DNA of 42,162 nt, from contig JAAYSO010000018.1 in assembly GCA_012523945.1 (NCBI GenBank), positions 1-42,162 of the forward strand, given 5' to 3'. Both the position numbers and the translations under genes were made by a program. The notes beneath the pieces are model-generated. The model did no database searches and was not told the DNA's origin. It was given only the letters and a program-made list of their open reading frames with translations. This DNA is from Bacillota bacterium (GTDB lineage: Bacteria; Bacillota; Dethiobacteria; Dethiobacterales; Dethiobacteraceae). Every line of letters begins with the position of its first letter. Position 1 is the stretch's first letter. Of the stretch, positions 962 to 25,842 are shown one piece after another.

Positions 962-987
962 AAAAGGCGGGTTGCTCCCGCCTTTTT
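962..987 (-). terminator. Intrinsic terminator after the permuted protease
   Basis: AAAAGGCGGG and CCCGCCTTTT pair around a TTGCT loop, with T-runs on both sides. It begins 7 bases past the stop codon at 994 of the leftward protease gene, so it most likely ends that transcript. It can also work on the plus strand. Confidence 0.8.
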
Positions 988-993
988 ACTTGG

Positions 994-1977
994 TTACAGA
1001 AATTGTAAAGGGTGGAAACGCAGTAAACTGCCGATTACGTCTCGATTAAGCCTGCCCCCGTCAGCCCGGCCCGGTTGAAGTATGGGATCGCCGATTTTAG
1101 ATAAACCGTCTTTACCATTGGTGGCGTTGGCTAAAACGTGGTTGTTGGATAAAATTAGCGGCTCATTTGTTTGCTCATCATAAACAACGGCACCGAAAGT
1201 GCCCGCCGTAACCTGATAATGGCCAATGCTTAAACCGGGTTGGGCAGGGCGCTTTTTAGCATTACGTTTGTAGCGCATTTTGTCAACGGAAAAAGTCTCA
1301 TTTTCTATATCTGCAACCAAATCTCCTGTTTCAACTACATCGGTTATAATGCCCTCAATTTTAGGGGGAATGAGATCTTCTGCCCGGAGAAGAGAACGAG
1401 GTAATTTTTTGCGTACGAAAAAAGTAATACAGGGCTCACCCAGATCTATGCCCTGTTGCTCCTTATGCCCGATGCCTACACCGATGACATTGGAAAAAGC
1501 AAGCAACCTGGGCAAATCGCTTTGATAAATTCGCAATTGCCGGTAGTTGTCGTCTTCATCGGAAAAGGATGGAAAATCTCTTTTCTTTGCTGTAAAACGG
1601 ACTTGCATTATATTTAAGACTTCTGCAATGGGATGATAAATGGTGGCGGAGTTTCCGCCGGCAAAAAGTAAACCTACAGCATGGTTATCTTGATTTAAAA
1701 GCAGTGAGCCGCTGTCACCTGCTGTTCCCATTTTTGTAGTTACAATTTGATTGGTAAAAAGGGCGGTGCGCCCACCACTAAAACCGATTCTTACAACTGC
1801 TTTAATGACTCTGATCTGTCCTCTTGTCAGTCCTGTAGAGCGTCCGCTTTTTTGCACATTTAACCCGATTCTGGCTGATGTAACTCCTAAAACGCGACCT
1901 ATACTTACAATCTCTTCATCAATCCAATTTTCCTTATAAGGACGGGCCAAAGCCGCATCAATTTGCCTGCCATGCAT
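994..1977 (-). CDS. Circularly permuted trypsin-like serine peptidase
   Basis: The start chosen is the ATG at 1977 (327 aa), because GGGAGG lies 7 nt upstream; an upstream in-frame ATG at 2022 lacks such a site. The sequence resembles clostridial trypsin-like proteins of the Nal1-like type, but the order of parts is reversed. It begins with the catalytic-Asp segment (DAALARPY, Asp7), then GTAGDSGSLLLN with the nucleophile Ser89, and the usual C-terminal end EVLNIMQVRF. A short linker (KKRDFPSFSDEDDNY) follows. Then comes what is normally the N-terminal half: LAFSNVIGVGIG, ITFFVRKKLP, TAGTFGAVVYD and SNNHVLANATNG with the catalytic His280. The protein stops at RFHPLQFL, just where a normal copy would run into the Asp segment. 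All three triad residues are present once. There is no obvious signal peptide or membrane helix. The substrate is unknown. Confidence 0.8.
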   Translation of the reverse strand: MHGRQIDAALARPYKENWIDEEIVSIGRVLGVTSARIGLNVQKSGRSTGLTRGQIRVIKAVVRIGFSGGRTALFTNQIVTTKMGTAGDSGSLLLNQDNHAVGLLFAGGNSATIYHPIAEVLNIMQVRFTAKKRDFPSFSDEDDNYRQLRIYQSDLPRLLAFSNVIGVGIGHKEQQGIDLGEPCITFFVRKKLPRSLLRAEDLIPPKIEGIITDVVETGDLVADIENETFSVDKMRYKRNAKKRPAQPGLSIGHYQVTAGTFGAVVYDEQTNEPLILSNNHVLANATNGKDGLSKIGDPILQPGRADGGRLNRDVIGSLLRFHPLQFL

Positions 1978-2070
1978 GATTTTGCCTCCCGTATCTTGGT
2001 ACATTTTTGGTACATTTATCATACGCGTAAGCAGAAAAAGGAGTGCCGGCTCTTGGCCGCGTTCTGCAAG

Positions 2071-10480: not shown

Positions 10481-10502
10481 CTAATTAAAAGAAAATAAAA
10501 CA

Positions 10503-10680
10503 TGGGTTTATGGTGCCGCATTTTGCGGAGAATAGGGAATCGGGTGCAAGTCCCGAGCGGTCCCGCCACTGTAACCGGAGAGAAACTGCCAGGCGTATGC
10601 CGTTTGCCACTGTCTTCATGATGGGAAGGCGGCAGGGACGTTGAACCGGAAGCCAGGAGACCTGCCATAAGCTCACGTTT
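10503..10680 (+). ncRNA. Cobalamin riboswitch
   Basis: The conserved blocks of the class I AdoCbl riboswitch are visible in order: GGTGCC near 10512, GGGAATCGGGTGCAAGTCCC (10535-10554), GCGGTCCCGCCACTGTAACCGG (10557-10577), and the B12 box AGCCAGGAGACCTGCC (10651-10666). It stands between a consensus promoter and a terminator ahead of cobT. Ligand binding is expected to favour termination and so shut off cobT when cobalamin is plentiful. Confidence 0.95.
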
Positions 10681-10697
10681 TAGGTTGGGATGATGGT

Positions 10698-10735: not shown

Positions 10736-10758
10736 ATTAAAAAATAGGAGGTATGTTT

Positions 10759-24651: not shown

Positions 24652-25791
24652 TTATCTTGCCCGTTCTGCAGCTTCTGCAACAACTGCCAGGTAATCCTCC
24701 ACGGTAATGGTGACAGAAGACTTCAGATCAGGCTCATCGGGTACATGGAGGTGGGACGGATCTCTTTCAAAGGTTTTCATGCCTGTGATTTCACTGACAG
24801 TTTTACCTACCATCCACTCTTCCAGCGCCTCGATTTGTTCGTGCCATTCTTTACCGATTTCAGAGGCATTAATTAAACCGTAGTCAGGACCTAATTCTTT
24901 TTTCGTTTTCAGTTCAGCGTCCCGATTGGTAACTTTACCTTCAGCGTCAAATTGTACTCTGATTTGGGCATTATCGATAACGGTACCTACAACTTTACCG
25001 TCGGCAGCAAAGGCTGTAGCTGCAATTACGGTATCGACTTGAGCCATAGGCAGAACTTCAGCATTATCGCCACTGGCCGGAACATAGTCTTTAGACTTGG
25101 CAATGGAGGATTTATTGCCCAGACCTAATTTTACAGCGCCTTCAACTTCAATCGCATTGGCGGCTGCCTTTTCTACAGCAGCTAAATAAGCTTCCACGGT
25201 AATGGTGACAGAAGACTTCAAATCAGGCTCATCGGGTACATGGAGGTGGGACGGGTCTCTTTCAAAAGTTTTCATGCCTGTGATTTCACTAAGAGTTTTA
25301 CCTACCATCCACTCTTCCAGCGCCTCGATTTGTTCGTGCCATTCTTTACCGATTTCAGAGGCATTAATTAAACCGTAGTCTGGACCTAACTCTTTCTTTG
25401 ATTTCAATTCGGCATCTCTGTTGGTGACAACAAAATCTGCATCAAAATTAACTCTGTTTTGAGCAACATCAATGATCACGTCCACAACTTTTCCGTCAGC
25501 ATCCAAAAGAACTGCTGCCATAGTTGTATCTACTTGACCTACAGGCAGAACTTCAAGGTTATCACCTTCTGCCGGTTGATAATCTTTTGATTTTTCAATA
25601 CTGTTTACTACACCAAGACCCAGCTTATATGTGCCTTCTGTTGTAGCCGGACTTTCGTTTTCTTCATTGTTTGCTACATTGTTAGGAGTATTGTTTTTTG
25701 TGTTGTTCGGTTGCATCCCCCCACAGCCAGCTAAAATTAGTGCCACTAGAGACAATGCCAACATTAGTGCGAGAATTTTTTTCTTCCTCAA
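24652..25791 (-). CDS. Lipoprotein with two tandem copies of one domain
   Basis: The product is 379 aa from the TTG at 25791, which has GGGAGG about 7 nt upstream; a TTG at 25806 lies before that site. A lipoprotein signal (ILALMLALSLVALILAGC) is followed by an Asn-rich linker. Two copies of a domain of about 165 aa come next, each running from KLGLG...SKDY through QVDT...AA, KKELGPDYGLINASEIGKEW and EEWMVGKT to DLKSSVTITVE. I cannot name this domain with confidence. Similar extracellular repeats in Clostridia are sometimes labelled FMN-binding, but the Thr flavinylation motif is not evident. It should sit on the outer face of the membrane. The last halves of the repeats are almost identical at DNA level, which points to recent duplication or gene conversion. 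Confidence 0.85.
   Translation of the reverse strand: MRKKKILALMLALSLVALILAGCGGMQPNNTKNNTPNNVANNEENESPATTEGTYKLGLGVVNSIEKSKDYQPAEGDNLEVLPVGQVDTTMAAVLLDADGKVVDVIIDVAQNRVNFDADFVVTNRDAELKSKKELGPDYGLINASEIGKEWHEQIEALEEWMVGKTLSEITGMKTFERDPSHLHVPDEPDLKSSVTITVEAYLAAVEKAAANAIEVEGAVKLGLGNKSSIAKSKDYVPASGDNAEVLPMAQVDTVIAATAFAADGKVVGTVIDNAQIRVQFDAEGKVTNRDAELKTKKELGPDYGLINASEIGKEWHEQIEALEEWMVGKTVSEITGMKTFERDPSHLHVPDEPDLKSSVTITVEDYLAVVAEAAERAR
24698..24884 (-). repeat. Intragenic direct repeat, copy 1
   Basis: Nearly identical to 25193-25379, with an exact offset of 495 bases (165 codons). By eye about five substitutions separate them. It encodes the C-terminal half of the second lipoprotein domain. Confidence 0.9.
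25193..25379 (-). repeat. Intragenic direct repeat, copy 2
   Basis: Partner of 24698-24884. It encodes the C-terminal half of the first lipoprotein domain. The N-terminal halves of the two domains are clearly more diverged. Confidence 0.9.
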
Positions 25792-25842
25792 TTTTTTCCC
25801 TCCCAAGATTGTGAAAATAGAAACTTATGTTTTCGCTATCTC

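Follow-up and report, generated by a model that had tools for sequence, protein, structure and literature searches.

The 42,162-nt stretch of DNA analysed here (positions 1 to 42,162 of contig JAAYSO010000018.1, referred to as the window and taken from a 154-contig draft assembly) carries on its reverse strand, at 994-1977, a gene for a Nal1-like peptidase of the trypsin family (PA clan) that sequence comparison confirmed to be in circularly permuted order. A sequence-only reading of the gene had placed the catalytic residues in the order Asp7, Ser89, His280 rather than the usual His, Asp, Ser, and all three were found at these positions. The family order NAL1_N, His, Asp, Ser was not met in any of the 11 full-length permuted proteins that we retrieved, all of which run Asp, Ser, NAL1_N, His. 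The protein descends from the Nal1-like family and by inference works like it, yet it is a permuted variant and not an ordinary member. Our overall explanation, in which a Nal1-like protease was permuted by way of gene duplication and carries its triad in a single chain, is one that we hold with good confidence.

The gene encodes 327 residues plus a stop codon (994-996; open frame 997-1977), and all of the following segments lie on the reverse strand. Residues 1-126 (1600-1977) correspond to the C-terminal segment of normal homologues, with the Asp strand followed by the Ser barrel; the N-terminal Asp segment, MHGRQIDAALARP, contains D7 (codon 1957-1959), and the Ser barrel contains GDSGS (residues 87-91) with S89 (codon 1711-1713). 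A linker (residues 127-148, 1534-1599) that differs between orthologues then connects the old C- and N-termini. It leads into residues 149-218 (1324-1533), which comprise the old N-terminal helix and the NAL1_N domain (PF25608, matched at residues 164-210), with the Nal1 N-terminal motif NVIGVGIG...FVRKKLP running from residue 163 onward. NAL1_N has thus been turned into an internal domain, which refines the earlier reading. Residues 243-327 (997-1251) supply the remainder of barrel 1 with the catalytic His (H280 in SNNHVLAN, codon 1138-1140), and the new C-terminus falls directly past the motif RFxPLxF (RFHPLQFL in the window protein).

Both flanking signals named in the sequence-only reading were located, although only one could be accepted as described. 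The ribosome binding site before the Asp segment is a Shine-Dalgarno-like GGGAGG (1985-1990, reverse strand) 7 bases 5' of the ATG. For the claimed terminator, a 10-bp hairpin (AAAAGGCGGG-AGCAA-CCCGCCTTTT, 962-986, reverse strand) does start 7 bases past the stop, but its identity as the probable terminator remains no more than plausible, with no tool confirmation and with a simple consensus terminator scan having missed it (too few T in the tail). Another hairpin with a T-rich tail, at 2081-2109 on the same strand between leuB and the peptidase gene, is the probable leuB terminator, which suggests from sequence features that the peptidase gene is transcribed apart from leuB.

The evidence for permutation lies in how the two halves relate to normal-order homologues. 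When the halves were searched separately, each on its own matched such homologues, in opposite order, which excludes chance; against the homologue from Desulforamulus putei (locus L033), the first half gave 44% identity (E 3e-31) and the second 54% (E 3e-52). A linear profile alignment of the 11 permuted against 22 normal proteins covered 166 columns (HH score 445), while after rotation at residue 128 the alignment spanned 295 columns with a score of 731 (E 4e-107), so that homology spans both barrels and NAL1_N once the sequence is rotated. The pairwise score against the D. putei homologue likewise rose from 418 (linear) to 645 (rotated), and since all cuts tried from residue 129 to 156 share the top score, the old termini sit in the linker, with homology to the normal N-terminus resuming at residue 149 (hhalign). 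The D. putei protein has the same domains and motifs, a conserved triad and ~49% identity to the permuted proteins in the rotated profile alignment, and the same motif residues are invariant in the 22 normal homologues (D210, S292 and H122 in D. putei). Weak matches to the solved rice NAL1 pair query residues 162-284 with chain residues 82-208, and query residues 34-99 with 299-367. End-to-end alignment to unpermuted homologues, which would have refuted the permutation, was not met, as homologues outside the bacterium's order need rotation. The Pfam families NAL1_N, Trypsin_2 and Nal1_C all match the window protein, each below its gathering score, which serves as a warning that linear profile searches score permuted proteins sub-threshold.

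To establish whether the arrangement extends beyond one genome, the sequence-only reading had proposed a search of related genomes, and the bacterium's order was sampled accordingly (20 genomes from 12 genera of one family). The gene was found in 12 of these, always as a single copy, with 11 full-length permuted single open frames and one truncated copy. The ten other full-length copies, from the window's genus and seven other genera, are 49-74% identical to that of the window and are all cut at the same loop, so that the permutation is fixed across the whole order and is no peculiarity of a single genome. In the window, as at all ten other loci, leuB is close to the permuted gene, with a YchF-like gene within reach at six of the ten and an addB-like gene also at six; because these neighbours are conserved, the copies are orthologous. 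A misjoin at 1500-1620, making a chimera of two normal tandem genes in the window genome, had been named as the other refuting case, and it draws some support from the 154-contig draft state of the assembly and from the tandem pairs known in the Nal1-like family. This explanation can be virtually dismissed, as it is refuted by the same order and cut point in single open frames from ten independent assemblies. No second, normal-order copy was found in the window's own genome.

The permuted gene is under purifying selection, with a dN/dS of 0.16-0.19 (Nei-Gojobori; four pairs with unsaturated dS), and is thus neither a misassembly (11 assemblies) nor a pseudogene. It is also dispensable (non-essential), since 8 of the 20 genomes of the order gave no match and one copy is truncated. 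The latter (genome G019, L092:196-483) lies within a contig as an open frame of 96 aa and probably represents a decaying gene.

At broader taxonomic levels, we surveyed 98 genomes of the class and 399 sampled from the phylum, 155 of which had a match, and one-piece matches across both halves occurred only in this order. Among 55 loci on viral contigs, 53 had the normal order and two showed one half only; no permuted members were found outside the order in the class, the phylum or the viral contigs examined. Altogether 70 full-length proteins were extracted (11 permuted and 59 normal). In a tree of both halves (69 proteins), the permuted group is set apart from the rest by a single branch (support 100/98) that was recovered in all 200 bootstrap trees examined, and separate trees of each half also place the permuted proteins in one group. 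As judged from these phylogenies, the permutation arose once. One of two tandem genes in G211, a Bacillota genome, appeared as sister of the permuted clade in the tree of the C-terminal half (support 88), and was rejected as such given its long branch and lack of resolution in the combined tree; as the combined tree gives no resolution here, we claim no sister group. In the class survey, we additionally observed an 81-86 aa NAL1_N-like-only open frame upstream of a normal peptidase gene in family f5 (L025, L026, L027).

Structure prediction had been proposed as a check on whether the two halves would close together, and AlphaFold2 closes them with confidence (pLDDT 87.5, pTM 0.88), being less certain in part of the linker and in residues 221-250. 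The model was built from a 45-row alignment in which normal homologues were entered as separate halves, leaving the 11 permuted rows as the only source of between-half information. Barrel 2 is predicted to be uninterrupted, whereas barrel 1, cut between the His and Asp segments, takes the strands that close it from both chain ends. The permutation is therefore more precisely located than in the earlier reading: rather than parting the two barrels, the cut separates the His and Asp strands of barrel 1. The first predicted strand (E9-13) comes straight after D7. In chymotrypsin, the classic strand after the Asp reads D-x-x-L-L-x-L, and the D7-adjacent strand of the permuted protein resembles it. 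The His-Asp loop varies among normal relatives, from short forms to forms with a 40-60 aa insert; most normal homologues in our set have this insert, exactly at the position of the permuted proteins' new termini. Such length variation among the aligned sequences indicates a loop that tolerates change.

Foldseek preserves chain order when aligning, and it aligned the permuted model only partially, with a TMq of 0.28-0.33 against NAL1 and of 0.29 against streptogrisin B. A normal homologue, in contrast, aligned to NAL1 over ~380 columns (TMq ~0.62, E 6e-16) and to streptogrisin B with a TMt of 0.73. This contrast is the pattern expected of a permutation. The plant protein NARROW LEAF 1 (NAL1; PDB 7Y77, 8HAU, 8PMM) likewise has NAL1_N and a trypsin-like double barrel, but in the normal order. 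Streptogrisins A and B and alpha-lytic protease have the same Ser barrel and are the best structural and sequence matches of residues 30-123, but unlike the permuted protein they have the normal order and no NAL1_N. The chymotrypsin-type double barrel of the permuted protein is a prediction only, resting on the model and on part-matches to PA-clan structures. A barrel built from both chain ends could favour strand exchange, and the rice NAL1 entries contain several chains (A-F), so we also considered a domain-swapped form in which the Asp strand of a second chain would complete barrel 1; we regard this as unlikely, given how confidently the model closes as a single chain.

Regarding the origin of the permuted gene, tandem duplication followed by trimming of the ends, the route inferred in the sequence-only reading, remains the best supported explanation, although the route itself is still an inference. 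An ancestor of the order would have carried a normal gene (NAL1_N, His, loop, Asp, Ser), which would have been duplicated head to tail with subsequent loss of the stop codon between the copies. Trimming of copy 1 from its start up to the His-Asp loop, and of copy 2 past that loop, would then have left a chain running from the Asp strand through the Ser barrel, linker and NAL1_N to the His segment. This chain would form the same double barrel, in which His280, Asp7 and Ser89 may act as an ordinary charge-relay triad (the geometry being inferred). Duplication is the standard model for circular permutation (PMC3320104), and we infer that an origin by tandem duplication, stop loss and trimming is likely in this case. 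Residues 127-162, consisting of the linker and the retained old N-terminal helix, are as expected if the tail of copy 1 was joined through a short spacer to the beginning of copy 2.

In-frame tandem duplicates were found in other lineages, and none in the permuted order. Plasmids of Methylocystis (L098:1396-4971) and Gemmatirosa (L099, with one more related copy after the pair) carry pairs arranged head to tail in one reading frame, with one stop and a few codons between the two genes, and in G211 two genes of the family abut in tandem. These pairs are analogues of the intermediate and not descendants of it; they demonstrate that such a route is possible without proving that it was taken. Some initial candidates were rejected: the plasmid matches, which had looked permuted from a tblastn piece running from the Ser part to the NAL1_N part, are two normal tandem genes with a stop between them, and an 865-aa frame in genome G404, at first taken for a double gene, holds a single normal gene, the frame running on through masked sequence. 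Fission and fusion, in which the halves would first have been encoded separately and would then have fused the other way round, is likewise a general route to circular permutation (PMC3320104), and a small NAL1_N-only frame does lie beside the normal gene in some class relatives. Those frames lack the His segment, however, and the linker approximates in length the old C-terminal tail plus the old N-terminal start. Because no genome was seen with the halves as separate genes, this route is less likely than duplication, and we rate it as quite improbable.

No activity data exist for the permuted protein, and its assignment as a serine protease is inferred from the conserved triad and from family membership. 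By eye it has no obvious N-terminal signal peptide, from which an intracellular role is inferred, and it is probably an intracellular, self-standing, non-zymogen serine protease, with both catalysis and location being inferences. For a plant relative, maize NAL1a, trypsin-like protease activity and degradation of a corepressor have been reported (PMC12915138). The absence of measured activity, together with Pfam matches that all fall below gathering scores, would also be compatible with a conserved binding protein that is not proteolytic; we find this very doubtful in light of the invariance of Asp7, Ser89, His280 and GDSGS across 11 orthologues that are only about half identical.

Natural permutants are known among saposins (swaposin), lectins, methyltransferases and GTPases (PMC3320104, PMC2395249, PMC2430557), and swaposin, lectins, the permuted GTPases (YlqF group, cpRAS) and DNA methyltransferases represent the same type of event in different folds. 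In HtrA proteases it is the PDZ domain that is permuted and not the protease (PMC12745498), whereas in the Nal1-like protein it is the catalytic fold itself. The open-licence literature searched, which leaves out subscription papers, yielded no precedent for permutation in a trypsin, chymotrypsin or PA-clan protein, an absence that is not proof. Few enzyme folds have been studied as much as that of chymotrypsin, whose His-Asp-Ser order is near-universal. A permutant that is cut in barrel 1 and maintained by selection throughout a bacterial order suggests that neither folding nor function requires that arrangement. Such a protease should surprise structural biologists and is directly testable, being nature's own test of whether a classic protease fold tolerates re-wiring without loss of function; the 11 permuted and many normal homologues (~50% identical) make folding pathway, activity and dynamics directly comparable between topologies.

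In part of the permuted group, the new N-terminus also carries an added domain. In genome G010 (L003:1255-1500), a CarboxypepD_reg Ig-like domain (PF13620, E 4e-10, above gathering) is attached there, at what is an internal position in the normal chain, and the extension has a strong ribosome site 5' of the domain. A weaker version is present in G008 (upstream part of L005), the earliest branch of the permuted clade in the tree of both halves, so the fusion may be ancestral and subsequently lost, or else may have been gained twice. We lean, by a modest degree, towards the view that the catalytic chymotrypsin fold is here documented for the first time as naturally permuted, that the change became fixed once, in the order's ancestor, and that the new N-terminus in barrel 1 then served to attach the Ig-like domain. 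Apart from the permuted group, a gene at L100:2965-4863 and similar genes on Rhizobium and Streptomyces plasmids have a normal-order Nal1-like part and are annotated as DNA/RNA non-specific endonuclease, possibly as peptidase-nuclease fusions. Elsewhere in the window, a cobalamin riboswitch (RF00174, 122.7 bits) at 10494-10683 lies immediately 5' of a cobT-like gene at 10753, and a lipoprotein-like open frame at 24652-25806 contains, as judged by eye, two near-identical repeats (KLGLG..S.I.KSKDY.PA.GDN...).
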